From positions 1 through 25,784 of the IMG/VR virus record IMGVR_UViG_3300030328_004553: a stretch of DNA of 25,784 nucleotides; one strand, given 5' to 3'. The notes below the pieces were generated by a model. It had not been told where the DNA came from and made no database searches. It was given only the letters and a program-made list of their open reading frames with translations. Source of the DNA: a virus. Both the position numbers and the translations under genes were made by a program. Positions 1,736 through 25,229 of the stretch are shown piece by piece; the first letter of the stretch is position 1; every line of letters starts with the position of its first letter.

Positions 1736-4700
1736 CTAACTGCAATTGCACGAAGATCTCTAATTTTAGGAACATCTGCTTGATTAGTTCCTGCCATTAT
1801 TATTTTAATAGAATATCCTATAAATTCACCTAAATTATTTGCAGTAAACTGATATTCTAAGTATTGTTCATCCAGACTTGCAGGAACAAAAGAATCGGGT
1901 TTACCATCATTCTTAGATGGATCAATTACCAAATCTCCAAATCCATCACCAGTAGAATCCGTCATATTATCATAACCAGGGAATAATTCGAATTCTTCTG
2001 AAGTTTCACTTATATCACTAGTTCTTCTTAAAGAATAGAGAACTCTAATATCTGATGAAGAACCTCTATATGCTGTAAAAATAACTTTTAAAGAATCTGC
2101 TGGTTTATCTAGGGAAATAGGACTGGAAACATAAATTGCACTATTAGGATCAAAATTAGGTGAATTGACAGAAGCACTCTTACTATAATCAGAAACTGGA
2201 TTGTTTATCCTATTTGATCTAAATTCAGTAAATGCAATATCTGTAAAAATGATTGGAGATACGTTCTCATGACCACTTGCCAGTGTAATTGCTGTTGTAA
2301 ATGATTTATTCCTTTCAATATTTGTCAAATATGTAGTTTCATTTATCTTAGAGCAAACAAGTCTAGGAGTAGTAAAAGTATTTAATGTATTTAACTGAAC
2401 AGGAGAATAACCTTGATCTATAAATGATGTTTCTGTTCCATCAACACTAGTTCCACTTACAGTTCTAACCGATGCAGTAGCCCCAGTTAATAATGATGGA
2501 GTGAAGACATTATAACTAGGAACTATAGCATCATATTGGATGTTTCTAGTACCATTTGCATTAGATCCACCATAGAATCCTTCACTCTCAAATGATAACG
2601 CTGGTATGTTATCTGATAATTCATCAACATCTCTATTTCTTCCCATAGTGGCCGCAAAACCCACATAATAACTATCCAAATCAATACCAAAAGACTTAAT
2701 ATTATGTTGAGTGTTTATTCTTCGAAGAGAAACACCATTAAGTTCATATTTCTCAACTCTTGTATTAGTATTGTAAGGGATAGATAATGTTGAATCTACT
2801 CCTCTAGTAATAGATTCCAAAATTCCTGCACCCACTGATTCATATCCAATAATTTCCCCACCAATTCTTGCATATCCAGTATTAGCAGCTCCTACAGGAA
2901 TACCCTCAAAGGTATTAAAGTCAGGGCTCGTTGTAGATGCAACACTAATTGTAAGATCTGCAGTTGCGAAATCAGTATTAAGAGCAGTTGTATCTAAATT
3001 GCTCTTAATATTATCTAATACAACAACATTTTGACTGGAATGCATTCCATGATCAAATTCATTTACTTTAATAAATGTTCCATCATTAGGATTAGAATCT
3101 ACAATTAAACTAGTAAGAAGTTTTTGATTAGTATTTTGAATAGCACCCGCATCATCATAATATCTTAAATCTTCATTAAATTTAAATCCACCATTCGCAC
3201 TTGTTCCTTGTATACCAGAAAGATATAATGTATCCACCCCACCATTATCACTAATTCTTATTAATGCACCCTCACCAATATTTCCACTCATATCAGATGT
3301 AGTAAGGCCTACAATATCACCGCCAGTATATCCTGTTCCCACCTTTGCAGTTCCAAATCCAGTAATTGAACCATTAGCATCAACTGTAATATTAGCCAAT
3401 TTATATCCTGAACCTTTACCTACTACATTAAAGGTATTAACAATTCCTGTTGTAGCCTCGTAACCAAAACCACCTGTAACAATCCCACTGGCACCTGAAA
3501 CTGAACATCCAGTACCCACAACATATGCAAAAACACCATCATTACTATGACCAAGAATTTTTCTTCCTGGAGTAAATGTAGTAATACCACTATTACCTGT
3601 TATTAAAGTTGTAATACCTATTTGTCCTGTTTTAGGAAGAGTAAGTATTGCATTATCTTCTAATGTAGGTACATATCCATTACTTTGATTTAAGGTAGGA
3701 TTTGCAAAATATGCAGTTCCACTACTAGAAGTAAAGTTTGCTTTATATAACTTAAACTTTAAATCTTCTGTTTGAGATGGTGTCCAAATAGATCCATTTT
3801 GAGATTTAAATAAACTACCTAGAGCCCACTGTTGATTATACTGTATAGCAGATACGTTAGGAAGACTTTGAATATTAACAGCATCTTCACCCATCCTAGC
3901 AATCCATACATCGTAAGCATTGCTTGTTGGTGCAAGAAGAACAATAGCATATTCTCTTCCTGGTGCTAGATAGATAGGTTCAGGAAACTTAACATTGGTA
4001 GCTACAGACCCATCAGTTGAAGTATTAATATCTTCAGATGGTACAACCACAGGTGTTCCCAATAATACTCTAGTAGGAGTACCTAATTGAACTGTTCTAA
4101 TTTGTACTGTTACACTACTATTTCCAGCAACTCCATTTGCATTTTGATCTCTATTCCCAAAGAATAAATCAACAGAAGTTATAACAACTCCATTGTCATC
4201 TCCTTCCACTCCTGCGGATCCTGGTGCTTCAATATTACCACCAACAGTAAATGATTGAGCTAATGGGTCATCATGTGGAGCTGGTGGAATTAGTTCACGA
4301 GAATTAGTTGTTATTGTAGTATTAACAGTTTGTATCTGCCTAACAATAAATGTTCCTCGTGATTCATAATCTGCTTGAGCAGCTGAAATTATTTGACTAC
4401 CTCTTAAAGGTGTACTATTATTAGCATCACTACTAAGTCTATAAACTTTTCTTCCAGTTTCAATTCTCACTGTAGGTGCAGGATCGGCATATGGATCTTG
4501 TAAGAAGAATGAACCAATTACATCCCCATAACGATCTGATTTTAATCTCACCTCTTTAACATACGCAACTGCTCCATCCTCTTGACCAACCAATCTCATT
4601 CCCTGAGTGACATATCCACTATATAATCCTTGTGCTTCATTAGAAAGGGCTAATGTATCTACATTTAATATAGGAGATGAAGAAGTATATTCACTTTGCA

Positions 4701-7700
4701 AAACTTCTTGGGTATATGGATTATCATCAAATACCCTAGTTGGTGCATTAAATGGACCTTCTTTATGATTAGATGCAGCAACTCTAAATGAAATAACCTC
4801 TTCATCATTCAGATAACCTATTACAGTCTCTCCAACCTTAAAGGTACCTACAGAGCCATAGTTTACTAATGTATTATCATCCGCAATTTCTAATAATTTA
4901 GGAATAAAATAAACATCAGAATTACCATCAAAGAACTGATAATATGGTGTTAGTGGTTTTAGATCAGAAGCACTGAATTGAGTGTTTCTGGATCTCATCC
5001 ACTCATCATCACCAGTATTTACTACGATATCATCACTTCTAGTTTGTACTTCAGTAGTAGTAACAATTCTAGTGGGGCGATTATCTCTTCGACGGCCAAA
5101 AATAATACGGAAGAACCAGTTTCTTCTTCTTAAAGGTGGAACGTTATCAACATCCCTTGTTACACTTTCTTCAGTAATACTTTCATCCAATCTTACAGTT
5201 CTTACCCAACTATCGCTTGAAGGTGATAGGGTAACATCACCCCTATAAGAAACTACATGGAAAGGATTAATATTCTCAACTCTTGTTGCATATGATTGTT
5301 CCAACCAATCAACTTCTTCATATTTTAAAGTTACAGCATTTCCAGTCTTTTGTACATTAGGATCTAATAAATCAAAATTAGTACCCATATCATACTCTTC
5401 ATCTATAACATTAGATGCTGGTAAAAGTTGACTTTGGAGACTATTTCTTGCAATAATAGGTCTTATTTCTCTTCTTTCCGTATCAACATCTATAGAAGAG
5501 AAATTATAATTAACAAATTCATCATTAATAAAACTATCAACAAAAAATCCACTCTTAAATCTATTTCTTCCATTAGCATCTTCAATTCTTAAAGCTTCAG
5601 TACTTACTTCAAGAAGTGAAAGTGTAGTAACTTCTTCCAAACTTTCAATACGATCTTCTAAAAGACCAATATCTCTCATCGTATATCTTCTATTATCCGT
5701 TAATGTAATTCTTGCATCCCTTGGATCGTACAAATATGGTGGCAAAATAAGAGTTGCCAATTCCATTGAACTGTTAATATTTACAGGAGGTTGAGGTAGA
5801 GGAGCTGATTGTCCTTTTTGTATTGTTAATAATCCAAATTCATTTAAATAAATTTTATCAATTCTACCAAGATAATAATCATATCCTAATATAGTACTTC
5901 CATTAGGTGATACTAAGAATTTAGGAACTGTATTAAAAGCAGTTGTTCTAGATGCAAAAGCAAATGGTGAAGATGATGTGCCACTAAAAACAGGAACTCT
6001 TGGTCTAAAATCAAGAGTATCAGTTGCCCTTATGCGATCAGGACCAACTAACGGAATATCTTTAGTGTATCTTTCTTTCCCATAACTAAGTACTGTAAAT
6101 ACGTCTCCACTATCATTAGCAGGTACTGTATAATGGTCATAAACAATTAACAATCTTTTAGAAGGAATAGATGAACTACTCTTTCTAACTATTCTTGAAT
6201 AATCATAATATTGATCTCTTTGACCCTTATCCAAAGTAAATGATTTCGAAATATTTTGATATCTTGCATCTGTATCGGATGTATTAATACCATCAAGATT
6301 TGTTGTAATATTAGATTCTTTAAATACTACAGTCTCTAAATTCGTAAATACTTTATCATTTAGATATACAATACCTAATTTATTAGATCCACCTGAAGAT
6401 GGACTAGATGCATTATTTGTGACCACTCTTGCAATAGCATGAGAAGATTGGCCTACAATATTCTCCCCAATAATTGCATTAGTTGCAACATTAGCAGTTG
6501 CATTAAATGAAAGCGTATCAAATGTAGGTTGACTACCATTAACAGATTCATAAACTGCTAACACTCTTACAACATCAGGTACATTTAAAGATATTTCTTC
6601 ATCTTGAACTCTTAAACCATAAGCAAGTGTATTAGTAATTAATCCATCTTGAATACCAGTAGTAATACCAGATTGTGGTAATTTGGATAGAGTTACATCA
6701 AGTAATTTACTTCTTTCATAATTTTTTATTTTACTCTGAATACCTTGTTTCTTTGCTGTAACATTAATAAGAGTTCCTGCAGTATCATCTTCCAATCCAG
6801 TAAATGATGCCTTAAATCCTCCACTATTTAAATCCTTATAACTATCCGAACTTACTGTACCAACTCCATTTGAAGCAGTTCCATAATGTATAGAAAATCT
6901 ACTTACACCATAAGAATCAAAAAATGCTGTTGAAATTCCAGCTCCACTTCCATCTTTTAGATCATCAATAGTTACAGTGGCAGCTGCTCCAACTACCTTT
7001 TGACCTGTTATTTGAGCTGAAATACTAAGAGATGAAGATGCAAGATCTACAGAAGATATATTAGGATCAGGTAATACTTCATATAAAGGTCCTGTATCAC
7101 TTTTATTCCATATTTGTGCTATTCTTAAACTAGTCTCAACACGATTAGAACTAGAAGCAGTTCCATCATAAACTCCAGCAACACCACCAGAATCAGTCAT
7201 ATTACTAATTGTAAATGATCTTGAATCAGGAGAAATAGCTGTAATCTTATTGTAAATAGGAACCTCTCCACTAGTAGGTTTAGGATATGAAATAATATCC
7301 CCAACCTTAATACCACTAAAGGGTATAGAACTACCACTTGTTACTGTAGTTCCATTTATATTACAAACATTAATTCCAAGTAATGGTATTGGAATCAAAG
7401 ATGAATCTGCAGTAAAATCTTGAAGATATGGTGCAACTGCGGCTTGTTTTACCGATCTAATATCATTTGCACTATAGTTAATTGTTGCTTGAATTGTTCT
7501 TACAGGACTTGTAGATCCATTAATACTAATTTGCTCTCCTACAAGAAATTCACCTGAAGTTTGAGTCAAATAAACATCACTAGCACCACTACCCGCCGCA
7601 GTAGTATATCCTGTAGCATTGCTACTCAATCCTCTAATAATTGCAGTTGCTGGTAATTCTGTAGCACTAACAGCAGTGGTTAGAGTAAGTTTAGTATATG

Positions 7701-9084
7701 TATTGACATCATAAAGATAAAGATTCCATTCACTAGAGGGACCTGTATATGAAGAATCTTTTGGATTGAAGGAATATAATCTTGCCTCACCAATTAGTGT
7801 ACCAGCAACAGCTCCAGTATTATCTAATAGATCATCATATAAATTAATAACCTTTCTATATTGAGGTTGACCAAAAACATTATTAACTACTATACGATTC
7901 CCCATTTCAAAATTAACACTAGATGCATCTATAGTTCTAGTATCTCTAGGTTTATCAGCATCTAAAATAGTTAAAGAATCAGTATTTACAGAATAACCAT
8001 TAACATAAGCTTCTCCACCAGAAACCTTCACACACATTAAATCATCAGAAGGTGTATTTCCTTGTTCTGTCTTTTCTCCACTAAAATATATTCCCCCATT
8101 TCCTAATCTATTATTTAAAGAATTAGCTACAGATATACTAAAAGGATTTATAGCATAATTTCCAGATTCTTCATACGTTCTTTCTGCCAAATAATCTCTA
8201 ATTAAATTATAATCTGTTTTAGTTTTAACTTTTCTAATTTGACCCTTATTTACTCTTAGAATTTCAAAGAAATCTTGATCATTTTTATCGTCTAATAATT
8301 TCTTAGTAAGAGTTAAAGTGATTTTTAATCTATCTGCACCAGGTGCTGCAAAATTTGTAAACCCAGACGCATTATCATAAAGTGAAGGATCGTCTTTTGC
8401 ACTAATTATTTGCTCATCAATTTTTAATCCTACTCTATAAGAAGGAGTATTAGTATAATAATCTAAAATAAGTGTCTGACTACTAACGTTTACAAAAGTT
8501 CCTCTAATAAAATAAACACCTTCAGATACAAATGCAGCAGAACCTACAGCAGTTGCATTAGTCGATATTAAAGTTGCAACTCCAGATCCTGCATTAATAG
8601 TTGTATTACCATAAACAATATTTTCTTGAGTAAGTAATTCTTCACCATCAATAAAAGTAAGTAGACTAGAATCTGTAGAACCACTATTTAAATATTTTAC
8701 ATAAATTGTTAAATTTTCTACATCATTTCCATCTGGTAATACCACATAATCTACAGAAGCAGTAACACCAGAACTTTGTCCTTCTATAATTTTACCTACA
8801 AGGTTATCTACATATAAAGAAATATCAATTCCAAATTGAGTGGAATTTAGTTTTACGGCATAATAAGCATTATCAAAAGTAGGAGCTCCAGGAATTACAA
8901 TAGATCCTTCCTTAAAAATATGACTACCAAATGTCTCTATTTGATTTTGAGCAATAGATTGAAGATTAGTTAGTTCTCTTGCTTGAACTGGAAATCCTGG
9001 TTTAAATAAAACCTTGTAAAAATTATTACTGGGATCAAAGTCATCATAGTAAGGACTTATATTTAAATCTTTTGATTGTGCCAT
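1732..9084 (-). CDS. large DUF4815-type baseplate/virion structural protein (2450 aa), in the gp9/gp10 slot
   Basis: The N-terminus (YYDDFDPSNNFYKVLFKPG, then QARELTNLQS, residues about 12-45) matches the DUF4815 pattern of phage virion proteins. The middle contains a basic stretch (RRRNWFF ... FGRRRDNRPTR, about 1319-1340), then a block ending in LKPLTPYYQFFDG. A DPLAQSF motif at 1606-1612 precedes a Jelly-roll-like segment (VTVQIRTVQLG, LAPGREYAIVLLAP). Between about residues 1885 and 1940 are G-S-G-Y type repeats, then an HGMHSSQNVVVL module and an EIIGYES ... ITRGVDST module. The C-terminus carries an Asp-rich loop (DSTGDGFGDL, from about 2376) that could bind calcium. It follows gp8, where T4 has genes 9 and 10, which suggests it is a large wedge-attached or peripheral baseplate protein; this is inference from position. 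The 6-nt gap after gp8 implies co-transcription. It is far larger than T4 gp10 (602 aa). Confidence 0.85.
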   Translation of the reverse strand: MAQSKDLNISPYYDDFDPSNNFYKVLFKPGFPVQARELTNLQSIAQNQIETFGSHIFKEGSIVIPGAPTFDNAYYAVKLNSTQFGIDISLYVDNLVGKIIEGQSSGVTASVDYVVLPDGNDVENLTIYVKYLNSGSTDSSLLTFIDGEELLTQENIVYGNTTINAGSGVATLISTNATAVGSAAFVSEGVYFIRGTFVNVSSQTLILDYYTNTPSYRVGLKIDEQIISAKDDPSLYDNASGFTNFAAPGADRLKITLTLTKKLLDDKNDQDFFEILRVNKGQIRKVKTKTDYNLIRDYLAERTYEESGNYAINPFSISVANSLNNRLGNGGIYFSGEKTEQGNTPSDDLMCVKVSGGEAYVNGYSVNTDSLTILDADKPRDTRTIDASSVNFEMGNRIVVNNVFGQPQYRKVINLYDDLLDNTGAVAGTLIGEARLYSFNPKDSSYTGPSSEWNLYLYDVNTYTKLTLTTAVSATELPATAIIRGLSSNATGYTTAAGSGASDVYLTQTSGEFLVGEQISINGSTSPVRTIQATINYSANDIRSVKQAAVAPYLQDFTADSSLIPIPLLGINVCNINGTTVTSGSSIPFSGIKVGDIISYPKPTSGEVPIYNKITAISPDSRSFTISNMTDSGGVAGVYDGTASSSNRVETSLRIAQIWNKSDTGPLYEVLPDPNISSVDLASSSLSISAQITGQKVVGAAATVTIDDLKDGSGAGISTAFFDSYGVSRFSIHYGTASNGVGTVSSDSYKDLNSGGFKASFTGLEDDTAGTLINVTAKKQGIQSKIKNYERSKLLDVTLSKLPQSGITTGIQDGLITNTLAYGLRVQDEEISLNVPDVVRVLAVYESVNGSQPTFDTLSFNATANVATNAIIGENIVGQSSHAIARVVTNNASSPSSGGSNKLGIVYLNDKVFTNLETVVFKESNITTNLDGINTSDTDARYQNISKSFTLDKGQRDQYYDYSRIVRKSSSSIPSKRLLIVYDHYTVPANDSGDVFTVLSYGKERYTKDIPLVGPDRIRATDTLDFRPRVPVFSGTSSSPFAFASRTTAFNTVPKFLVSPNGSTILGYDYYLGRIDKIYLNEFGLLTIQKGQSAPLPQPPVNINSSMELATLILPPYLYDPRDARITLTDNRRYTMRDIGLLEDRIESLEEVTTLSLLEVSTEALRIEDANGRNRFKSGFFVDSFINDEFVNYNFSSIDVDTERREIRPIIARNSLQSQLLPASNVIDEEYDMGTNFDLLDPNVQKTGNAVTLKYEEVDWLEQSYATRVENINPFHVVSYRGDVTLSPSSDSWVRTVRLDESITEESVTRDVDNVPPLRRRNWFFRIIFGRRRDNRPTRIVTTTEVQTRSDDIVVNTGDDEWMRSRNTQFSASDLKPLTPYYQFFDGNSDVYFIPKLLEIADDNTLVNYGSVGTFKVGETVIGYLNDEEVISFRVAASNHKEGPFNAPTRVFDDNPYTQEVLQSEYTSSSPILNVDTLALSNEAQGLYSGYVTQGMRLVGQEDGAVAYVKEVRLKSDRYGDVIGSFFLQDPYADPAPTVRIETGRKVYRLSSDANNSTPLRGSQIISAAQADYESRGTFIVRQIQTVNTTITTNSRELIPPAPHDDPLAQSFTVGGNIEAPGSAGVEGDDNGVVITSVDLFFGNRDQNANGVAGNSSVTVQIRTVQLGTPTRVLLGTPVVVPSEDINTSTDGSVATNVKFPEPIYLAPGREYAIVLLAPTSNAYDVWIARMGEDAVNIQSLPNVSAIQYNQQWALGSLFKSQNGSIWTPSQTEDLKFKLYKANFTSSSGTAYFANPTLNQSNGYVPTLEDNAILTLPKTGQIGITTLITGNSGITTFTPGRKILGHSNDGVFAYVVGTGCSVSGASGIVTGGFGYEATTGIVNTFNVVGKGSGYKLANITVDANGSITGFGTAKVGTGYTGGDIVGLTTSDMSGNIGEGALIRISDNGGVDTLYLSGIQGTSANGGFKFNEDLRYYDDAGAIQNTNQKLLTSLIVDSNPNDGTFIKVNEFDHGMHSSQNVVVLDNIKSNLDTTALNTDFATADLTISVASTTSPDFNTFEGIPVGAANTGYARIGGEIIGYESVGAGILESITRGVDSTLSIPYNTNTRVEKYELNGVSLRRINTQHNIKSFGIDLDSYYVGFAATMGRNRDVDELSDNIPALSFESEGFYGGSNANGTRNIQYDAIVPSYNVFTPSLLTGATASVRTVSGTSVDGTETSFIDQGYSPVQLNTLNTFTTPRLVCSKINETTYLTNIERNKSFTTAITLASGHENVSPIIFTDIAFTEFRSNRINNPVSDYSKSASVNSPNFDPNSAIYVSSPISLDKPADSLKVIFTAYRGSSSDIRVLYSLRRTSDISETSEEFELFPGYDNMTDSTGDGFGDLVIDPSKNDGKPDSFVPASLDEQYLEYQFTANNLGEFIGYSIKIIMAGTNQADVPKIRDLRAIAVR

Positions 9085-9090
9085 GTTTCT

Positions 9091-10680
9091 TTAGAATTCC
9101 AGAATAATTTTAATGTCTTCTTTTTGTCGAATATTACGGGTAATTTCTTCTCTATTATCAATATAAAGAATATCCCCAGATGTTTTATTTATCTCGGAAT
9201 CTGCAAGACCACCTGTAAAATAAACTCCCAAATCAATTTCTTTTGATCCTGAAGTCATTGTACGGCCTGTAAAAGCAGTAGCAACATTGACATAATTTAC
9301 ACTGGTAAATGTAATCTTGGAACTTGAAGATTCAAAAGGTAAAACTTTAGCTTCAGTACTAATACCAATATAGTCTGTTTGATTTCCTGTTGTAGGATTA
9401 TAATATAGTGAACGATCTTGATAATACTTCAGAACACTAGTTTCTTTATCATAGGATGCAATATATCCTTTAGCGGTTCCACCAGTTACAACTTGTTCTA
9501 TTTCAGAGCCAATAGCGGGAGTATCAGACCAATATCCCGTTCCTCCTTCTGTATCACCATCATCTAATTTTATAGCTCCTAAAGAAGAGTATTCACTAGA
9601 TGTATATGTGGATCCTATAGAAGTATAAGTTGATGGATTCTTTACAATTCCAACTTGTGCAAATTTTGTACTTACTGGGAAATCTTTAGTTGAATCGTCA
9701 AATCTTGCATATACTAAAACTCTATCAGCACCCAATTCTTTATAAATGTCATATCCATGACCTCTTGAAGGCGGAATAATGACAATTAAATCTGCATAGG
9801 TAGTTGGAACACCAGTTGGTTGAGCATCACCTAAATCTACTACACCATAAGTATATCCACTTCCACCTGCCGTTATTACTGCAGATGTAATTTTACCACC
9901 AGCAACCGTTATAGAAGCTTTAGCACCTGTACCATCACCTAATATATCTACATTATAAGGTCCTCCATTGTTATACCCGTCTCCCGCATTTTTAATATAT
10001 ATTGTTTTTATTTGATTAAAATTAACTGTAGAATCACCTGCTTCCCTAACACTTTGTATTTGAGAATTAGTGGTTGTTTCCCAGTTATTAGGAACTACAA
10101 TATATTCAGTAGAATCAAATTTAATAATATCACTAGGAGATACTGAAAAAAGAAATTTCCAAATATAACCATCCGCACCTGCAGCAAATGGTTCTAAATC
10201 AGTAGAGGTGGGTTCAAATTTAGAATTAACACCATCAAGATCTTCACCAGAAGATCCATTTTTTATACAAATATAAACATTAAAATCACTATTAATTACA
10301 TAATAATTTGCATCATACAATCTTGCAGTATCTGAAACTGGAGCTTTATTGTTAACACTATAATCTTGCCTATACATATCATAGGCAGTATTAACCTTCC
10401 ATTGTACTTTCCTTACAACTCTTCTAATATTGGTACTATTAATCTTTTTTCCAAAAAGAGAAGTACTTCCATATTGCCATTCATAACTGAAATTGTCAAT
10501 GGGATTTGGAGGGCCAGAAGCAGCAGTATTCCAATCTGATGTTCTACCAAACCCAGGGTTTGGTGTTGTAGGATTACTAAGACCTAGAAATACATAATAA
10601 GAATTATTAGTATCTAGTACAGAATCTACAAAATTACCAGCGTTAGATATTCTAAATTGATCTGTGACTACAGCAGACAT
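9091..10680 (-). CDS. 8: baseplate wedge protein gp8
   Basis: At 529 residues this is longer than T4 gp8 (334 aa). The N-terminal part has features typical of gp8 in marine T4-like phages: ISNAGNFVDS-VLD (11-23), YYVFLGLS (28-35), YDMYRQDY (100-107), NYYVINSDFNVYICIKNG (125-142) and DGYIWKFLFSVSPSDIIKF (170-188). Residues about 235-285 form two G-x-G-Y beta repeats (AGDGYNNGG, then AGGSGYTYGVVDL) that probably account for part of the extra length. T4 gp8 is a dimer that binds gp10, gp7 and gp6 on the outside of the wedge. The gene lies after the giant gp7-slot gene, matching the T4 order 6-7-8. It has its own late promoter at 10698-10705 and no Shine-Dalgarno in its short leader. Confidence 0.85.
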   Translation of the reverse strand: MSAVVTDQFRISNAGNFVDSVLDTNNSYYVFLGLSNPTTPNPGFGRTSDWNTAASGPPNPIDNFSYEWQYGSTSLFGKKINSTNIRRVVRKVQWKVNTAYDMYRQDYSVNNKAPVSDTARLYDANYYVINSDFNVYICIKNGSSGEDLDGVNSKFEPTSTDLEPFAAGADGYIWKFLFSVSPSDIIKFDSTEYIVVPNNWETTTNSQIQSVREAGDSTVNFNQIKTIYIKNAGDGYNNGGPYNVDILGDGTGAKASITVAGGKITSAVITAGGSGYTYGVVDLGDAQPTGVPTTYADLIVIIPPSRGHGYDIYKELGADRVLVYARFDDSTKDFPVSTKFAQVGIVKNPSTYTSIGSTYTSSEYSSLGAIKLDDGDTEGGTGYWSDTPAIGSEIEQVVTGGTAKGYIASYDKETSVLKYYQDRSLYYNPTTGNQTDYIGISTEAKVLPFESSSSKITFTSVNYVNVATAFTGRTMTSGSKEIDLGVYFTGGLADSEINKTSGDILYIDNREEITRNIRQKEDIKIILEF

Positions 10681-10697
10681 ATTAATTAGTTTTTAGG

Positions 10698-10705
10698 TAT
10701 TTATA
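10698..10705 (-). promoter_or_regulatory. T4-type late promoter box (TATAAATA) for gp8
   Basis: An exact TATAAATA lies in the 31-nt gap between the giant gene and gp8 and ends 17 nt before the gp8 ATG. The spacing is identical to that of the gp25 promoter. With T4-like initiation the leader would be about 12 nt (AAACTAATTAAT) and has no Shine-Dalgarno. Confidence 0.85.
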
Positions 10706-10711
10706 AGAGTA

Positions 10712-13700
10712 TTATGAATAGAAGGGATCGAGAGCTCCAGTATCTCTCAATCCACTTGATCGACGTTGAATCGTTGGGAAAGTAGTTAATCCAGAATTAA
10801 TAGTCAATCCAGTTACTCCTAATGCTATAGGTTCATTACTTCTTGTAAAGGAACCACCTAGTCTACCCCAAGAGAATCTACCAATAGAATCCATAGAACT
10901 ACCAGTACTCGCCAATCCCACTACAGTTGTATCAGATTTTATATTACATGTAATAATTCCAGCAGTACCAGAATTCCATATATGATTAATATTGTAAATA
11001 TTATCCAAGAAAGTAGTTCCAATACCAACCACTTCACTATCAGAATCAAATATTGAAGTAACTCCTGTTCCTACAGTAGTATTAGTAATATAAATTGGAT
11101 AATTAATATTTAAGTCAGAATAACTTGAAGCAAACAAACTAAATTTGAGTGCTAATGGAACACCATCACCTGTGGTTGTACCAATTCCAGTAATAATTCC
11201 AGAGAAACCTTTAACAGAAGTAATATTTCCAATTAATTCTGAAGTAAATGTAGGAAGAGTTACTAAAACATTAGGAGCAGCAGTTGCTGTATATCCAAAT
11301 CCTTGAGCAGTTATTTCGGTTGAAGTAATAGAACCATCAGTTATAGTTGCTGTTCCTGTTGCAGTTGGATTTGCAGTAGTTCCAATACCTGTAGTTGGAA
11401 TTCCTATTGATAGCGAAGTGGTTGCCCCTAAATATCCACTACCACCACTTACAATATCAAGTGAAGAAATAGTACCTGCAGTAGATACTATAGCAGTAAT
11501 AGCAGCTGAAACACGTGTGACACTGTTATCTACCACTCTTCCACTAATGGGTGAAGATCCTGAAATTTCTCCTTCTTCATCAAAGAATGAAGCATCATCA
11601 ACAAATATTTCAGTATCAGTGGTTGTAAGACTACCAATAATTTTTGCAGTAGGGAATATTAAAGGTTCTAGAGAAGGGCGAGATTTGTAAACCACTTCAC
11701 CATTTATTATTCTATCTACTTTTTGTTTTGTCCAATTTAATGTTTTTTCTTCACTTGTAATACCTACTCCTTTATAGAGATTAGTTTCTATAATATCAGT
11801 AGCAGTAATGGCAGTAGCGACACGAGACTGTTGGTTTTCAACACTATTCAAAATCTTATCTAATTGAACCGTATCTCCAATTTTTAAAGATGGATATACA
11901 TTTGTTATCGTTTCAGTATCAGTTCCACTACTTCCACGATAGAAGAATATAGAAACTTCATCGTCTGCTTTTGGTGCTTCTCTAAACGCAAAGGATGTAC
12001 CTCCATCAAAGAGATAAGAAACACCTGGTTCTTGTATCACACCATTTATAATAATCAATAAACAATTAGCAAGATTTACTCCAGCAAAACTAGTTTCTGC
12101 TTCAATTTGGAAACTTAAAAGTTCATTATCATATCTTAATTCAAATCTCTTTCTAGATCCATCTTGCAAACTCTTAATAGAATCAATATAATCAAATTGA
12201 CCGAATTGCCAAGCAGCAAAATTATCATTATAAGTTTCTAAGACTGTTAATTCAAAAGGAACTATTGGAGAAGATAAACTAGCATCAGTTACTAATCCTA
12301 CAGGAGTAAAGACATCTCCTTTTTTAAATCCATATCCCTCTCTAGCAATTTCCCATTTAGGAACCTCAAAATAAGTAGAAGCACTACTAACAGTAGAACT
12401 AGCACTAACGTCTACATTTAATAATAAACCCACTCCAGTCTCCGTAGTGGCACCTATACCTAATCTAGAAACACCAGTAACTGAAAGGTTAGTATAAGAT
12501 GCTTCAGGGATATCTAAATATGGATTAGTGTAATTCGTACCTGCTGCTCCAATAGCAAAGGATAGAGTACCACCAGCACCTACTGTGGCTGTAACCTGTC
12601 CACCTGATCCTACACTGGATCCAACTTTGACGGTAAGGGTATCATCATCATAAGAAATAATTGAGGTTACAACACCTGCCACTGGATCAGTAGGTCTAGG
12701 ATAAGAATGTTCAGTAGCATAATCATCTTTAGAGCACTTAAATATCAAAGAATTAGTTCTAATTCCGACATTATCAGATGTTGTTAATCCATGAGCAGGA
12801 ACAGTTAAAGATAACTCCCCAGTTGTTGGAATATATGATGCAGATGTTGCGGTTAAAGCTGTACCAGCCCAATTAGTAACATATAAGGTTGTAGAAGCAC
12901 CACTTACAAACGTATGATCATATGAGACATCTGTTACCCCTATAGAAATAGTAGATCCTGTATATCCTGAACCAATAGTTGCATTTCCATACCAAGGCAT
13001 TACAGATCCACCACTATTATAAGTGTGAGGAATAGTACTAACGCCAACATTAGTAGTAAATGTATTGGTAGCTCCAATACCTAATATGCTATAATCAATA
13101 CTTGTACTTCCAAATCCTACAGGTGATTCTGGGAATATAGTTGTAGTAATACCAGATCCACTAGGACATGTAAATGCCAAACCAGATAATTTAACTTGAG
13201 CAATAATACCTGCCTCAAAATTATGTTCTTGTTGTGTAGTAATTTCCAATACACCAGTTTCATTATTATAAGATGAAGTACTAATAGCAAGAGCAGGGCC
13301 TGTAGTAGCAATACCCACAACATTAGTAATACCACCATTAGAATCTTTTTCTAGGTATGCACGTGCTCCTACTGCTGGTGCATACCCCAATCCTGGTGTA
13401 GATCCTAAAGAAATAATTAAACCGCCTCTGGGCAATTCATTTTGATTTACATCAATATCACTAATAATCACGGGATCATCAGTAGAGGTCCTAATACCTG
13501 TAAATCTTACACTACTTATTCCACTTGTTACATCTTCTTGAATTTCGAAATTATTGGAAGGATTATTCTCCGCAGTAGGTGATTGGAAAATATTACTAAT
13601 TAATAATAATCCATTACCTCCAGTTGTTCCTAATCCTACAGTATTAACTCCTGCATTTGTTAAAGTATATGTTTCCCCTATTCCAGTAAATTGATCTGAA

Positions 13701-16700
13701 ATGTCATCATAAACCTGATTAGTACTATAATCTTCTCTCAAATAAACTCTTCCCCCAAAATCAGAAGTAGCATAATTTAAATTGCTAGAATTCTTAATTA
13801 ATTGAGGATTTCCTTTAGGAGCATCGGTAAACCATATCTTCTCACCCTTAATATTATAAGATCCTCTATAAAGATTAATAGTTGATGAATTTGTATGATT
13901 GGTTGATCCAGATCCAATAAATCCTCTTTCAACTTCTACAAGATTTGTAGATCCCACACCAGTTATTGGACCAACAGTAGTTGTTCCAACACCAACATTA
14001 ATAACCTTCATATATTCATTATCGATTTTTAATATATCTGAAGTAGTTAATGATGAAATTCCACTTAGAGAGAAAGTAGTTCTTGAAGTACTAATTCCAG
14101 TACTAGCATCATCAGTATTATTCTGTAGAGTAAATGATATAGGTACAAAAGCAATTGGAGACTGAATTACATTATCAATCGTAATAATAGATTTTGTATT
14201 ACTCTTAGCCATTTCAAATTGATGATTATTTCCTGTTCCTATTCCAACAAAAGTAACAGCACTTCCACCTCTAGTTGTCGATATCTGGAAAGTATCAGCA
14301 CTATCTCTAATAGCAAAAACTGTAGATGGAAGTTCATCAACAGCTCCTGTAGAACTTTGATATAGCATTGGAGTTGACCCTACACCAACAAAAGTAGATC
14401 CAGGAGTATAAATCAATTCTTCATCTGTTCTAAAGTAATGATTGTCTATATTAAATTTATTACCATTAAGTGAAATAATAGTTGATTGAGCAGGATTAAA
14501 TTTCTTTGCAAAAATAGGAGTATTACCCGACTTTAATATAAAATTAGTTTTATTAATTCTAGAACCATTAGTAGCATTATAAGCATATAAATTAAAGGAT
14601 TCTACTGCTGAACCATATGTTAAATCTGGGATAGCGTCACTGGAAAAATCAGTCTCCGTATAAAAAACTTTATTTAAAGAAGAAACCTGAATATTATCAG
14701 TTATAAATTCAGTCTCAGGATAGAACTTTAATACAAAGTTACTAGAATCATATTCAGCACCAAAAGTTCCAATTCCTAAGCGTGTATCAATTTCGACATC
14801 CCCTGCATTAGAAAGAATTGGACCAGGTTGAATATAAACATCTGTACCATCATGACTCATCTTAATTTGATGAAGAGCTCTAGTAGATCCAACACTAACT
14901 TCAACTATAGAATTATTTGCATCAAATAGATTTTTATCTATTGCAACAGCAGTAGTAGTTCCTACTCCCACCGCATAATTTGATTGATAAACTAAACTCC
15001 TTTCAGAACCTGCAGGTTCATTAAAAGATGAAAATCTGTAGATATCAGTTCCAGTTGAAGTTGATCCAAAACCAACTACATTGGAACTATATGCAATTTT
15101 ATCAGTTAAATCATTTACATACTGTAAAGAAAATGTTGATCCAGTCAAATCCCCTTTAAATGATCCCATTAAAGTTTCAGAATAACCAGTTATTTCACTA
15201 TGAGTATCTGCAAAATAATCTGCAATATAAGTATCAGTTCCATCATGAGTAACATACAATTCAACATAGTTCATCTGAGATGTTGTCTGATTAACTAGAT
15301 GTGTTTTTACATATAGTGAATTATATTTCGTAGAATCTACACTTATAATAGAAGTAGTAGTAACCCCAAGAACACTATCGACTGTAGCTATTCCAACAGC
15401 TCCTGTAATATCAATAAATCCTACCGACTGAGTTCCAATACCTGTATTATTTAAAAAATCCAAATCAAGTGCTTTAATATCATAATCAAAATCAACACTA
15501 TTGGGTAAAGGAGTAAATCTTAAATAACGAGTACCTAATCCAGTAGTTTCAATACTAAATGATCCGATAGGCCCTTCATCCTCTAAATCACCTTTTTGTA
15601 AAAAGATAGAATTGGATCCAGTATTTAATATTACTATCTCTGTAAGTTGAACATCAGTATTATTTTCATTACCAATTTTAAATAAAATATTTTTAAATGA
15701 TACATTAGAATCTATTTCTAAAATATTAAGATAATCTGTTAACTCACTTGATAAATTAGAGAACTGATCTTGAATATTATCAATTTTTAAAACTTCATTA
15801 CTTTTTGCTAAAGTATATGCAGTAAAAACTTTATTTGGTGTTTTTATAGAATTGGAAGCATTTCCCGATCCTAAATCTAAAGCATATGCATAATTATAAA
15901 TTGTATCTACCCTATTATCTCCAATAACATCCCTAATAGAAAGTGAGAAATCCGTACTCCCTATTCCAACTAATGATGTTGATGTAATTCCCGTATTAGC
16001 AAAATTCTTAAGACCGCTAGTATGAAGTAAAGAAGAAACAGGACTCCTTAATTGATCAAAAGTACGAGTACTCTGAACAGTATATGACATATTTTGATAA
16101 TAGTCATTATTAGGAGTAACTTGAGTATCTAGATTTAATGATCCAATATCATCAGACCACCCAATATCTTTCTTAACCATATAATTTACTGAGAATCTAC
16201 CCAAATTCTCAGTTATATTATTAATCTTAGCTGTAGTACCTGAATCTTTTCCTGTTATTATTTCTCCAATACTTAATCTGTAAGTACCAGAGACTTTAAT
16301 ATAATCACTTTCAGTACTTGTAATAATTAAGTCTCTTTCAATATCATTAGATATTATTTTTTCACCTGTATTAAAGAAAGATGGAATTAAATTAGCTACA
16401 AATGTAGGATAATTAGTCTTGTTTATAATAGAAGCTACGTTAGATTGATCTGTAACTGCTATACCAGGATTGGTACTTATTCCTGCTAAATCTATAGTGA
16501 CTGAATCATTACTTCCACTTGCAGCTACCGTATATCCACTAACCCTAGCAAATCTATATCCAAAATCGGGAGAATTAAATCCTGTACCACCAGAACTAAC
16601 AGGATCATATTGTACGATATTTTCAATAAATACCTCATCACCAACCGTGAAAGGTGCGATTCCAAATCCTGCTGAAGGGGTGTTTATAAAACATGTAAAT

Positions 16701-19700
16701 ATTCCAGTTGAATTGGAAGAAATTGTACTAATAGAAACTCCATTAGTATTTTCTATAGCAAATAATTCTATTCCACCACTTGGAAGACCACTTGGAAGAA
16801 CTGTAGGATTAATATTAGTTATTGTATTATTAGTTAATTCTGCTTCTAGCAAACCACCCTCAATTATCTCTCTTGTAGTAGGATTAACCATTCTAATAAG
16901 AGGAGGAGTTAAATAATCATTTCCACCAAAAGTTACTGTAATAACACCTATCGTATTAGAATTTTCAATAATAATAAGTGGGGAAATAAAAGCAGCAGGT
17001 TGTAATGTCTTATCAGAAGAATATTCAAATCCCTCATTAATAATTCTTACCTTATTGGAATTACCCACATTTGTTGACGTGGCCACAAGAGATCCACCTG
17101 TTCCTTCCGTAGAAGAAGATCCAACAAAATTAGGTAATTTTTTATAATTAATTCCACCCGATAAAATACTGACATTATTAATACCACCCCTTGCAGTTAA
17201 AGAAGAAGTAGTATACTCTAACGAATCACATTCAGAAGATGTATAAGATAATTTTTCAGGTATTTCTTTTAATGAAATATCAAAAGTAGTATTACCTATT
17301 CCGATAATATTATATGAAGAATTATAGGAACTATCAGTAAAGACTATTTGAGAAGAATTGGGAGAAGTTGTATCTGTAGTACTAATAAATCCTGATTTTT
17401 CTAGATTATAATATAATTTTTGTGGAAATGTGGTACTATAATTAATAGTAGAAGTTGCATTGGTAGAAACTCCTATAGTTCCAACATCTACAACATCAAA
17501 TATTGTAGAAGAAGTAGAAACAAATTCATTCTTAAACTCCTTATCATAATATAAATTAAATTTATAATCCTCCAATGAAGAATGAGATAAATCAAAAACT
17601 AAATTATTATTTTTTAGAACTAAAAGTTGTGGGTTTACTTGTGAAATAATTTGATCAACTCCACCAGTAGATCCAATCCCTATAGTAACTGGGGGCTCAC
17701 TCTTTACATCAACTGAAGTTGCTGATAATTTTATTATATTTTCATTAACTTTATAAACATAATAACTTTGTGAAGATATTCCACTTGGGAAAAGATCAGC
17801 AGAATATGCTATTTTATCTCCAGTTTTTAATCCATGAGAGCTTAAAGTTAATTCATTGGTAGTTGTATTAATACCTGTAGAGTTAAATCCTATAGGGTTA
17901 ACTAAAATATAACCTGTATCATCTTGCCTCTCTAAAACAACTGCTGTAGAAGTTCCAATACCCACAGATAAATTTGGTTTGATAGTTAAATCAATAATAT
18001 CTCCTCTCTCTAAACTGTGAGAAGTTGATAATGATACTGTTGACTTAATTCTTTCTACTTTTCCTGTTACTTGCAAATAATTAGATTCAAAAGAATAATT
18101 ATCATAATTATCACCACCACTACGGAAATAAACATCCGAGAACATGGTTCCAATACCAGTTTTTATTCCAATCCTATTTGCAGATTTATCAGACACATAT
18201 ACTGTAGAAGGTAGTGTAAAGGTAGAACTTGTAGGTGAAGTTGAAATTGAAATATTTCCAGTCGTTCCAGCTGAATAACTTATTTGTTCATTTTCAGTGA
18301 AAGGATGATTTTCAAGATAAATTTGCTGAGTAGGAATATCTCTAGTAACACTTACATCAGCAAAATCAAAGGTCATAGTAGAAGTTATTCCCGTTATTGT
18401 ACCAAAACCTATGGCTTTTGTAGGGTTAAAGAAAACTTTATTATTAACTTTAGAATCGAATATATTAACTGACCCTTTAATATTAAATGAATCGGGTATA
18501 AACGATACAGAAGAAGTGGCGGTATGAGATAATCCAATAGCACCTCTTTCAACTCTTAATAAATTGGTATTTCTATAAGCTTCTAACAATTTTAAGGTTT
18601 CATTTCCAATTTTAATACTACTTCCCACAGAAACATTCTCAGGAATCCTAGAAACCCATATTTCAGTACTTACACCCACTATGGATGAAACTGATCCAAG
18701 TGGATATGTCAAAGATGCCATTGAAGTAGTTAATCCCACCATATTAGGGCCATTTAATTCTGACAATTGAGTGGAAAGACCAGAAACTATAATATTATCG
18801 TTGTTTTCCCAATCATGAGATGGTATTATATTAACTTTTACATTTTGACCGCCTATCCACGTAAATACTACATCACTATAAGAACTAGTGGCAGTGCTTA
18901 CATTTACAACATCTTTACCTTTTAATGATGAAACTCTAGAAATTAATCCACTACCATTGGTACCAGTATCATCAAATATTAAGGAATCATTAATTTTATA
19001 ATTATCACCTGAAGAAATTACCGATAATTTATCAATTGAACCAGATGATACGGATTCTATAATAGCTTTTTGTCTTGAAATCTCATTTGTCTCAATTATA
19101 AAATCATTATCAGCATTTTTATCAGAAACTTTATAAGGAAATGTGTTTCTAATGAGATCAGATTCTGAAAAATCAAAAGATTGATCAATATTTTGACTTA
19201 ATGGTACAGATCTATAAGAATCACCAATAAAATAAGGGAATTTTGGTACTATAGGAGCAACACTATCATCTACAGTTGCAAAATATGCATAAATTCCATC
19301 AGGGAATTCGGGAGTTTTACCAAATCTTCCATTATTTCGATCTAAATCTCCAGCATTAGTAAATTTATAGTCTTCTACAAAAAATCCAGCTTCAAAAGTA
19401 GTAGTTGAAGGTCTATCAAAAATATTAGAAGTGTCAATTTCATAACCTGGTTCTAATTTTTTTACTGAAGATGCAGTAGTTGGGTCAGGATATCCATAAG
19501 GACCATAAATGGGGTTACCATCATAGGCCCATCCAATAATTTTAGAAGCAACTGTAGCATCTTCATTGAATGAATCTATATAATTTTGAGTATACCCACT
19601 CACACTATACCCTAAATCATTAGTAGTTTTTAACAATAATTCACTACTTTGATATTTTTTACTTATATCAATACTTAATGGTCTTACATTAACGTCAATT

Positions 19701-22700
19701 AAGGCATTTTTTCCTGCTGCAACAACACTTATGGAGGTATCTAAACTTGAATATCCAATTCCTGGATTAATAACCTCTACACTAGATATTCTATTATTAA
19801 TAATAATAGGTCGTAAGGAAGCTCCACTACCTTTACCACTAGAATCGATAACATTTACGGATGGAACTGAGAAATATTGTTCACCACCATACTGAAGATT
19901 AACAGAATCAATTCTACCATTCACTATTATGGGTTCTAATTGAGCATTTTTACCCGTTTTTATAGAAATTATTGGTTTATTTTCAAAATTTAATATAGAA
20001 GAACCATATCCAGTCCCAGTTTCATAAAGATAAGCATCAATAATAGATCCTCTTACCGTTGGAGTAAGAATTACCGTTTCTACAAGTTGAGTAGTGGTTC
20101 CAAATCCTACAGGAGCATAGTCTAAAGACACTACAATGTCTGGATAAGCAAAATTATGATAACCAGTTCCAGTAGATCCCAAACTTACATAATTTTTTGA
20201 TATATAATTGCTTCTTATTGTTCCTCCAACCCCTGCATCAGTCAATTTAAAGGAATTATCATCAATTTTATTGATTTGATATTGATTTGTAGTTGTCAAT
20301 CCTGCAATAGATGTTCCAGTAGTGGAATATTCTACTATTTCACCCTCTCCAAACCCGTGATTATCAAAATTAACAGTATTATAAGCACTCGAAATACCAC
20401 TAGGTTTAACAATTAACTTTCTATTTGTAAATTTACCTCCATTTACAACTTCTATAGCAGTAATTGAAGTTTGATTGGGAAGAGTTGTAAATTGATGTAT
20501 CCCTGCAAGACTTGTCGTACCAAATCCTACAGTATTAATACCCGTTATAGAGTCATTAAGGGAAGAATATAATTGAATAGTATCATTATTAATAACATTT
20601 ACAAAATAAAATGAATTATTAACTAAAGAAGAAACTCCTATGCCAAGGCCTATTCCACTATTTCCATTAGACTTATAAATTACCTGTTGATTGTTCTTAA
20701 ATCTATGATTTTCAAGAAATGTAATTTGATCTGTGGTATTATTAACTCCTCCAGAATTAAGAGTTGACCTAGCATCAAAATTAACACTTCTAGATTTCTT
20801 AATAATTACTGGATTTAATACCGCATTACTATTTCCACCAGTAACACCAATAGATACCACTCTTTCAATATCAAATCCTTGAGGATCTACATCAATTTTT
20901 GTAATTGGACCACTAACTACGGGTTGTAATAATGCTGTAATACCAATACCTGATGCAATATCTATTTTAGGAAGATTAATAACATCATAATCACTTCCTT
21001 CATTTAAAATACTTATATTTTCTAATGGGCCATAATAAATTTTATCATTAGATTTATAGTTAGTAATCTCCACTCCATTAATTAACATTCCAATGGATCC
21101 TGGAGATGTCTCAACTTGAGTTCCTCTATTAAGAGTTGATTCTAAAGAAAACTTTTTAAGTAATTTCTGAGGTCCTATTACATCTATTTTCTGAGAATCT
21201 AAAGTAAATCTATGCCCACCAGTATTAATACCACTACTACTAGATGGAACATTTAATTCTATAAAATTAGTACCATCTACAAAAGCTCTAGATGTATATA
21301 ACTTCATCTCTTTTGTAGTAGTTCCTATTCCAACATAATAAGATCCTGTATCTAATCCAATATAAGGAGTTTGCCATGAGTCAGGTTCATAATAAACCTT
21401 ATCACCATTTATAAATTTTAGATTATTATTAAATTGAAGAGTTTTATAATTATTAGTTAAAAGATTCTTCTCTGTTAATCCAGTTGCTACAACAGATTCT
21501 ATATTAATTGCTATAGTATTAATATAATTGGATGTACTAAGTCCACTTCTTCCTGATGGTAAGGAATTGGATGCAATATAAGCAGTATTAGCACTACCCA
21601 CATACAAATTCTGAACATCAGAAAGTATAGTTCCATCTTTTAAGGGTACTATATCACTAAAAGCAGTATTAATTCTTCTTCTAATATCATATATTCCCTC
21701 TTCCAATTCTACAATATTGGTATTAACACTTAAAGTTATAACTCTATCATCAATACCATTAACTTTAAGATTTCCATCTCCACCAAATACCACATTATTT
21801 GAATTAGATTCGAGTATTTCAACCTTATCATCTATTTTAAGACTTGATCTATCAATATCTCCCTTAGTTGTACAAGTAGCATTGTTTATACTCTCTAAAT
21901 TAAATCTTACACTAGTATTGTATATCCATGAATTTGCAAAAATTTCTTTGGAAGTCTTATTAGTAGCAGGATTTTCAATTAAATCCCCAATATTACTCAC
22001 ACTAATAATTTGACCTTCATCTATACTAAGATTTTTAGATACTTGATCAAAATCAGATAAAACTCCAGTCAGTCTTAACTTAACTTTTGTGCCATCAGTA
22101 TCACCATCCTCATATCCAAAATAGATATCATCATTTCTTATAACATCTGCAGTTTGTATTGATGCTCCAATACCTGTACATCCAAAAAACTGATTAATAC
22201 TCTTATTTGTATAACTAATGGATGTATTAACCCCAGAAATAATAGTACCTGTAGCTCCAAATCCTACAGTAGAATCAACCGCTATGGTGGAAGCTCCAGC
22301 AGCAACATTTACTAATACTTTAGATGCTGGTGTAATACTAAAATTACCTTGTATGGTTGATGCAGATTCATCATAACCCATAAAAAGTGAAATTTTATAA
22401 TATTGCTTATTTTCAGTTAAAGCTACTCCAACTCTAGTGAAAGGTTCTACTTCTGAAATAGATGCATTTGTACTTAAATCTGATTCTTTAAATATTGTTT
22501 GACCAACCAATTTAGAAGGATCACCAGAAATTAAATCTGCTATTATTATTTCTCTTCTAACAAAATCAGCTGAAGATGGCTTAAGTAAATAGTCCTCTAA
22601 ATTGATAACTTTAGGTGTTTCCCCATAAAGAACATTAAATAAGATTCTAAATGACTCATTTGTACCTTTTGACTCATATAATGATCTTGCATTCTTTATA

Positions 22701-23279: not shown

Positions 23280-25229
23280 TTACTGTCGTTTTAATTGTCC
23301 GTTGGAATAACTAGATGTGTAGAAATCTTTAATAAAGGTGGTGCCTGTTACTTCATCACCAGAACTAATAACATCCCTCACCATATTTATTTTACTTTTA
23401 GAAAGACTTAAATGAATATACAATTCTCTTAACCCTACAACATCATTTGATTCAGGAATTGCTTGTATTTCAATAACACCTGAAGTATTAAGAGTTGAAG
23501 TGATATTTAGTGTATTCAACAATATCTCTCCTTTAATATAATCTACAGTTCCTGCAGATTTAGCAACAACATTATATGTACCATCATCTAGTACATCTAT
23601 AATAGAAATTACTCCTGTTTTTAAGTCTGGATTAGGAATATCAGTTATATAAACTGTTTTTGTAGTGCCAGAAATTTTAAATCCTGTAGATTTAATATTA
23701 AATCCTGATTCATTAACATGGAATTGATTTCCATAACATAATTCATACTGAGCAAATTGATTTAGAGCTGCTTTTAGGTCTCTTCTAATTTTTACCCTTG
23801 TAATATTAGAAGTTATAGCAGTATCTGTATTATCAATAACTTGTTGAATTTTACTATACTTGAATCTTCCACCAAATTTATTTAAATCAACTGAATTGGC
23901 ATATGTAGTAAGAGAATTTACTACACTTGTCTTTAATGCAGCTGGAGTAGATATTTTTGTATTATCAAAATAAACAGCAGAATCAAGTTCTACATATAGC
24001 ATCTTGAGATCTGTTATTTTTTGATTTATTCCAGATACAGTGTATTGCTTTAGTTTGGATAAAATAAGAGATTTATTAAAAGCAGAGACAAAAGATCCAT
24101 TTTTAGGTTTGATGCTAATATAAACGTTTCCAAACTCTGGTGGATCCATCTCCTCACCCCCTACAACGGCGACGGATTCAGTGTCAGGGTATATTTGCTT
24201 AACTATCGCTTCATAGTCTCTAGGAGTGACTGCACGGTACTGTGAGGAGTATACTCTAGGAGCATAATATTTGATTGAACTAACTTCTTCAATACCAGAA
24301 CCATTTTTAGAAACTTCGTTAGTAACAACTGTTGGTGAAAGAGTTAAAGTAAGTGGTGTATATTGAGAATTATAAGGATCAATAGATACAATCTTTCCAG
24401 AGAAGGAGAATGAATTAGCGGCGGATCCGATACCATTACCTTCTTTACCATCAGTAATGATATATTGAACCGTAATAACTGATTCATTTTCTAATTTCTT
24501 ACCAATATGGCCATCACCAAAGAGTAATTCGTACTTTTCATCCTGTATTTCTTGAATTAGAAATATTTCTGATGTTGAATCTACATTTAAGATATTTTCT
24601 ACTAAAGAATACTCATTTCCTAATGCATTTTTATCAGCTGCACTTACGGAATTAACATATACTCGAATTGTTGAAGTATCAATACCTGTATTATCTAATA
24701 TAAACCTTTGATCTAATGAAGTATCTGCAGTAAATGTTTTTGTTATAAAGGTACCTTCTCTAATACCAATATTAGAAAAAGATGCTTGATAGATTCCATT
24801 TACTCTGGCAATCGGTGCTGATATATTTTCAGAAACCGAAAAGACGTATGATGTATCACTTGCATTCCCAGTACACACTAAACCTGCCTGTAAAGTCGCT
24901 ATAGAGGTTCCTGGATCGGTTGCACCTAAAGTAGCGACAAATGATATTCTTGCTTCTGCGGCAGTTCTAGAGCGTGGTACATATCCAATATTTCTTGCTA
25001 ATGAAACTACATTTTCACGAAGAGTTGCTGAATCTAAAAAAGATTCATTAACAATCATATTAGAGTTAAATGCTGTAATATAAGTGTTATAGGCTAACGT
25101 ATCAATTAAAATAGAAAAATTAGACCCCTCAAAGTCAAATCCCGTAAACGTAGAGTTAGCACGGAGATAATCTTTGATAGAGGTCTTTATTTGATCAAAA
25201 TCAAGGTTTGTAAATTTAGTAAACGGCAT
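23280..25229 (-). CDS. 6: baseplate wedge protein gp6
   Basis: At 649 residues it is close to T4 gp6 (660 aa). The N-terminus has the gp6 pattern FTNLDFDQIKTSIKDYL, FDFEGSNFSILIDTLAYNT (about 30-48), NESFLDSATLRENVVSLA (about 61-78) and IGYVPRSR. The centre has YYAPRVYSSQYRAVTPRDYE (about 324-343), then GGEEMDPPEFGNVYISIKP, the usual core of gp6/baseplate J-like proteins. In T4 two gp6 chains per wedge interlock with neighbouring wedges to form the inner baseplate ring around the hub, and contact gp25, gp53 and gp7. The start is 1 nt after the gp25 stop (TAA-A-ATG) and the end is 1 nt before the giant gene, so the three are almost certainly co-transcribed and translationally coupled. There is no clear Shine-Dalgarno. 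Confidence 0.95.
   Translation of the reverse strand: MPFTKFTNLDFDQIKTSIKDYLRANSTFTGFDFEGSNFSILIDTLAYNTYITAFNSNMIVNESFLDSATLRENVVSLARNIGYVPRSRTAAEARISFVATLGATDPGTSIATLQAGLVCTGNASDTSYVFSVSENISAPIARVNGIYQASFSNIGIREGTFITKTFTADTSLDQRFILDNTGIDTSTIRVYVNSVSAADKNALGNEYSLVENILNVDSTSEIFLIQEIQDEKYELLFGDGHIGKKLENESVITVQYIITDGKEGNGIGSAANSFSFSGKIVSIDPYNSQYTPLTLTLSPTVVTNEVSKNGSGIEEVSSIKYYAPRVYSSQYRAVTPRDYEAIVKQIYPDTESVAVVGGEEMDPPEFGNVYISIKPKNGSFVSAFNKSLILSKLKQYTVSGINQKITDLKMLYVELDSAVYFDNTKISTPAALKTSVVNSLTTYANSVDLNKFGGRFKYSKIQQVIDNTDTAITSNITRVKIRRDLKAALNQFAQYELCYGNQFHVNESGFNIKSTGFKISGTTKTVYITDIPNPDLKTGVISIIDVLDDGTYNVVAKSAGTVDYIKGEILLNTLNITSTLNTSGVIEIQAIPESNDVVGLRELYIHLSLSKSKINMVRDVISSGDEVTGTTFIKDFYTSSYSNGQLKRQ

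Follow-up and report, generated by a model that had tools for sequence, protein, structure and literature searches.

Gene content of the window and the GxGY units

The stretch of DNA analysed here (IMG/VR record IMGVR_UViG_3300030328_004553, 25,784 nucleotides, hereafter the 25.8 kb window) is part of a T4-like marine cyanophage, as judged from its gene content, and carries a short repeated protein unit with a GxGY motif in three adjacent genes. The genes lie on the minus strand in the order gp25, gp6, a giant protein of 4188 residues, gp8, a VrlC/DUF4815 protein, a small protein, an LtfC-like protein, and a fibre. The same order was found in annotated relatives, P-SSM2, S-SKS1, S-SRM01, S-T4, and S-CAM7 among them, where the next genes encode gp13 and gp14 of the neck. 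The GxGY units seen in the window are confined to the genes of the giant protein, gp8, and VrlC (Table 1).

Table 1. Genes and GxGY units in the window (aa, amino acid residues; HMM, hidden Markov model)
Feature	Window position	Strand	Family or evidence
Giant protein, 4188 aa, T4 gene 7 position	10712..23278	-	phrog_2885, baseplate wedge subunit
Giant aa 1030-1193, three strong tandem units at aa 1075, 1118, 1159 and a probable fourth upstream (GTGYHNFAYPDIVVS)	19700..20191	-	HMM
Giant aa 3930-4025, unit pair GGSGYLGA, QGFGYTAT	11204..11491	-	HMM, 7.5 and 21.6 bits
Giant, decayed units at aa 761, 948, 1424, 2042, 2083, 2119	16880..21040 (covering range, discontinuous)	-	2-5 orthologous units each
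Giant, decayed unit at aa 3580 (AAGTNYTNP)	12497..12583	-	unit in three orthologues, best 18.9 bits
gp8, 529 aa, baseplate wedge	9091..10680	-	PF09215, phrog_438
gp8 aa 205-300, inserted two-unit domain (AGDGYNNG, GGSGYTYG)	9781..10068	-	HMM, 7.1 and 18.9 bits
VrlC-like DUF4815 protein, 2450 aa	1732..9084	-	phrog_358
VrlC/DUF4815 aa 1846-1955, GFGY (3471), GSGY (3414), GTGY (3339)	3220..3549	-	hhalign 58.7 vs gp8, 48.8 vs giant
gp6 baseplate wedge protein (context gene, without module)	23280..25229	-	
gp25 baseplate wedge protein (context gene, without module)	25231..25632	-	

The window gp8 is orthologous to T4 gp8 (PDB 1n7z) by sequence (PF09215, E=3.1e-10), position, and fold (Z 11.0 to 1n7z). 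However, T4 gp8 has only 334 residues, and the module stretch of the window protein (aa 199-492) corresponds to about 88 T4 residues. VrlC matches PF16075 (E=9.6e-63) and shows homology over four stretches to the solved DUF4815 protein ORF65 (PDB 9euf; E=1.5e-38), whereas ORF65 has 1152 residues and the GxGY region lies outside its matched stretches.

An HMM of the unit was iterated over relatives (five cyanophage genomes that are complete or almost so, and six that are partial), giving the consensus IVNGSITSVTVTNPGSGYTSTPTVTIS with a median spacing of 41 residues. The spacing is about 40 residues in gp8 and 41-44 in the giant protein. In VrlC, the three GxGY motifs are spaced more tightly, by 19 and 25 residues, with 44 residues from the first to the last. 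A two-repeat GxGY module was taken to require two or more units at a spacing of about 36-50 residues, and this arrangement was observed. The motif G[SDTFI]GY is far more frequent than in shuffled sequences, with 6 copies in the giant protein (shuffle mean 0.63), 3 in gp8 (0.13), and 3 in VrlC (0.31).

The motifs quoted in the initial sequence-only reading of the window are present on the minus strand, with GSGY at 9864 in gp8, GTGY at 20017, GIGY at 19762, and GSGY at 11443 and 12973 in the giant protein, and GSGY and GTGY in VrlC. The exception concerns GSGYTGST at 12973, where the motif exists but the HMM recovered no unit, and this copy was dropped. The three tandem units proposed near 19700-20071 map to giant aa 1072-1185 (19724-20065) and scored 17.2, 24.1, and 23.3 bits with the iterated HMM, against a decoy maximum of 7.6. 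The probable fourth unit upstream of them was recognised solely from the GxGY-F-YPDI columns, which are conserved in 26 orthologues. A dozen or more units had been claimed for the giant protein; when positions were mapped through five orthologues, 12 of them held units in at least two, although several copies in the window have decayed beyond the motif. Position 801 is represented in a single orthologue.

Homology of the module across genes

The sequence-only reading had held that the three genes share the same beta module, and that an HMM of the three tandem units should recover the other copies. Built from these units alone, the HMM missed gp8 (2.1 bits) and was negative for VrlC. After iteration over the relatives, gp8 reached 18.9 bits, well above the best decoy, and VrlC was still negative. 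An HMM trained without any gp8 unit scored the window gp8 at 15.2 bits (best decoy, 7.5). With each gene left out in turn, the copies in gp8, gp14, gp7, gp5, and fibA all exceeded every decoy; the sole shortfall was the gp8 of a Rhizobium phage.

Module alignments were then made for each gene, and hhalign comparison of these profiles gave scores of 30-98 for every one of the 21 pairs between genes, whereas control pairs did not exceed 21. The probability was 96.8% for gp8 against VrlC and 94.6% for the giant protein against VrlC (scores in Table 1), and gp8 scored 55.3 against the giant module. In these three alignments, GxGY falls on GxGY, both loops are in register, and the period agrees. 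The highest score was that of the orthologue profile of giant aa 3930-4025 against the gp14 module. Column-shuffled and reversed controls for seven cross-gene pairs reached at most about 20, against 41-66 for the real profiles. When VrlC was tiled into nine slices, a response came from aa 1850-1955 alone, the site picked out by the sequence-only reading. Other slices of equal composition mostly stayed below 18; the exceptions were g3300 (26 with gp8), g3700 (21 with gp7), and g680, which contains a unit and scored 24-29 against the gp7, gp14, and fibA modules. Gp8, the giant protein, and VrlC thus all stand above both the shuffled and the composition controls, and the iterated and leave-out HMMs, the profile matches, the shuffles, and the slices together support one homologous module common to the three proteins.

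Predicted fold and closest known structures

Each modelled unit consists of a strand, a hairpin, and a further strand after the GxGY loop. The predicted local distance difference test (pLDDT) values are 76-90 over aa 221-300 of the gp8 model and about 82-92 over the two best giant units. The model of the triple unit matched mostly phage virion proteins in a viral structure library, many of them from cyanophages. Proteins of the giant virus Sylvanvirus were also among the fold matches of the module in this library. Foldseek returned no match in the PDB for the triple-unit model at E<=0.001, and a profile of close orthologues (A1) found nothing credible in the PDB.

A profile of diverse tandem pairs (A3) gave one confident match among solved structures, residues 445-505 of the Dpo31 tailspike (E=7.5e-4) of Cobetia phage Carin-1 (PDB 28lx and 8ck1). 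The match lies in domain D3* (residues 434-536), which its authors describe as a protruding inserted Ig-like domain (PMC13317679). Like the module, D3* has two GxGY units, here 45 residues apart, and it is inserted in and protrudes from a virion protein; it differs in being a single domain in a podophage tailspike. A wider family of D3* is not mentioned in the available part of that report (PMC13317679).

Pfam searches with the consensus, the giant protein, gp8, and the Dpo31 segment at E up to 1 gave no match, including to the Ig, Big_2, FN3, and PKD models. The NCBIfam search gave one sub-threshold match, from gp8, far under the cut-off. A literature search with sequence strings of the module found no match. 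Promiscuous Ig-like domains are known from phages (Fraser et al. 2006, as cited in PMC10684548) and include additions to sheath proteins (PMC9230969). The GxGY module resembles them as an optional inserted beta-domain common to unrelated virion proteins, but it is made of two short repeats and lacks a Pfam Ig, Big, FN3, or PKD match. It appears to be a separate family within the known promiscuous inserted virion beta-domains, one for which the Pfam and NCBIfam searches gave no model.

Distribution in cyanophages and beyond

The module is dispersed over the genome and over virus types. The same cyanophage genomes carry it in the neck protein gp14 (three to four units), the hub-lysozyme gp5, a tail-fibre-like protein, and a long tail fibre. 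These copies lie up to 125 kb away from the wedge genes, and in P-SSM2 they are placed near 12, 75-105, and 215 kb. Among PHROG families, the consensus of the module matches 22, comprising wedge, hub, neck, fibre, and virion structural proteins and including head closure Hc2 (gp14), and the match of gp8 to the Hc2 family covers its module only. The gp7-position protein of Pelagibacter phage HTVC008M (L067:11916-14966) is annotated as head closure Hc2, probably because it has the GxGY module in common with gp14. The module is thus a source of wrong annotation.

Outside cyanophages, two units each were found in the sheath protein of the Pseudomonas phage Persinger, whose genome is 44 kb long, and in that of Escherichia phage ET-SD-TH. 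Contigs from bacterial genomes, L212 and L236 among them, encode sheath proteins with two to four. In the Persinger and L212 sheaths, where both flanking domains were detected, the units are placed between Gp18_domIII_N and the subtilisin-like domain. The clearest case of insertion is a lambda-like tail tube (Phage_TTP_11, contig L243), in which two units form a clean insertion of 78 residues; the site is empty in tubes that are 68-70% identical. Because close homologues lack this stretch, the moving piece is the pair of repeats. For gp8, the insertion is evident relative to the distant T4 protein only.

Of the first 584 candidate stretches from a scan of bacterial and archaeal genomes with the consensus sequence, 333 were confirmed as relatives. 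The bacterial carriers include phage-like proteins and others, such as a multicopper oxidase. Cement proteins also carry the module, as do bacterial proteins that look secreted. In a contig binned as a gammaproteobacterium, a T4-like gp8 (phrog_438; L195:3410-4948) carries the module, and this is probably a phage contig inside a bacterial bin.

Origin of the module

An old, mobile two-repeat beta-domain that was inserted many times into virion proteins is, in our judgement, probably the best explanation for these results. It would be a domain of about 80-100 residues built from a pair of repeats, in some cases more, each about 41 residues long, the units being its halves. Each repeat would run from a strand through an NG turn, a strand I-x-s-V-x-V, the G-x-G-Y loop, and a strand P-x-V-x-I to a Gly-rich turn. 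In T4-like cyanophages, it would have been planted at about a dozen positions in the gp7-position giant and in gp8, VrlC, gp14, gp5, and fibres; elsewhere, it would have entered sheath, tail-tube, cement, and tailspike proteins as well as secreted-looking bacterial proteins.

Several observations weigh against this explanation. The module models are moderate (mean pLDDT 63-65), with high values over the units only. The fold matches are weak, and the best VIA neighbours are Ig-like domains with a Z of 4.6. The VrlC copy is clear in profile comparison but is not seen by a single-sequence HMM. Gp5, gp14, and gp8 show presence of the module without an empty site in a close relative. Convergence could also account in part for the likeness of short Gly-rich repeats, though the shuffles and slices speak otherwise.

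It is possible, though we think it unlikely, that the module is instead the domain I family of the T4 sheath protein gp18 (PF22639), moved into other virion proteins. Gp18 domain I is inserted and of similar size, and it contains STPGSNYAVGD and DADGKIKKINIPTGKNY. The gp8 module model (aa 225-304) aligns with gp18 99-188 over 74 residues (Z 4.4, root-mean-square deviation 3.1), the insertion site is alike in Persinger-type sheaths, and hhalign scored 22-23 with the gp8 and gp5 modules, against a shuffled maximum of about 15. However, the module sequences did not match PF22639 at E up to 1, hhalign scores with the giant, gp14, and fibA modules were near background, and a Z below 8 may reflect a common arrangement. 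In addition, the second GxGY is not conserved in other gp18 proteins, most of which lack it. The resemblance in sequence and fold makes kinship with gp18 domain I suggestive only.

The sequence-only reading had suggested that like domains stack on each other in the virion or that modules were copied within the locus. Stacking in the wedge, with contacts between the modules of gp8, the giant protein, and VrlC as the reason why they have the module in common, is improbable. T4 wedge proteins do touch one another, and the three proteins are encoded together. Ig-like domains can also join protein-protein contacts (PMC9230969). Nevertheless, the module occurs equally in neck, sheath, and tail-tube proteins and in a podophage tailspike, which have no such partners, and this rules out wedge stacking as the role of the module in general.

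Intra-locus copying, to which we give still less credence, would have spread units among the adjacent gp7, gp8, and vrlC genes within one phage lineage. The three genes adjoin, and they contain all units seen in the window. However, the copies in gp14, gp5, and the fibres lie far from the wedge cluster, and unrelated phages carry the module too. For 70 of 86 units, the nearest neighbour is the same gene in another genome. Cross-gene similarity within genomes did not exceed that between genomes (difference 0.74, permutation standard deviation 0.86, P = 0.185), and the best DNA match between a gp8 unit and a giant unit was about 63% over 41 nucleotides. Because nearest neighbours are of the same gene and there is no same-genome excess, recent intra-locus copying is not supported and is largely refuted, while an older event could still lie behind the distribution. 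The units are old, and each is fixed at its position.

Independent origin of Gly/Ser/Thr/Tyr-rich, beta-solenoid-like stretches is scarcely credible: the proteins are indeed rich in Gly, Ser, and Thr, and the HMM missed the motif at 12973, but the shuffled profiles and tiled slices reject convergence, and the period, the register, and both GxGY loops align.

Possible role of the module

Inserted Ig-like domains of phages have been proposed to confer weak carbohydrate adhesion or virion stabilisation (PMC9230969). By analogy, the old, mobile beta-domain proposed here may decorate the virion surface, where it would adhere weakly to sugars of the host surface, cement neighbouring subunits, or both. 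In gp8, the first Gly and the Tyr of both GxGY loops are invariant across 38 orthologues, and the mean pairwise identity of the module (0.57) is near that of the rest of the protein (0.51-0.78). Such conservation would be less expected of a receptor tip, which evolves fast, than of a part with a structural or generic-adhesion role. If the module is a general surface decoration, it would offer a testable handle on how phages, marine and other, stick to cells or stabilise their tails.

A broader proposition seems to us evenly balanced between true and false, namely that the module is an uncatalogued and very widespread plug-in that moves among virion proteins of phages, whether myo-, sipho-, or podophages, and among proteins that bacteria secrete or expose at their surface. 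Nearly every tail layer of T4-like cyanophages (neck, hub, wedge, and fibres) would have acquired it, for a common function of the virion coat that does not depend on the receptor-binding proteins. In the huge wedge proteins of cyanophages, part of the extra mass is accounted for by this recurring domain, which has no entry in the domain libraries that were searched.

Other features of the locus

Another motif, G[IFV]G[TS]T, recurs in the giant protein, with 14 copies (shuffled mean 0.17, maximum 2), and was not found in VrlC, gp8, gp6, or the fibre. Directly after its tandem GxGY units lies a YHYH domain (PF14240, E=1e-24; window 19265-19558, minus strand). In S-SKS1 (L004:7568-19956), the gp7-position protein reads as several separate frames rather than a single one. 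The LtfC-like beta-sandwich protein of the window (1166-1507, minus strand) belongs to phrog_3304 and matches PF23926 under the cut-off of that family.

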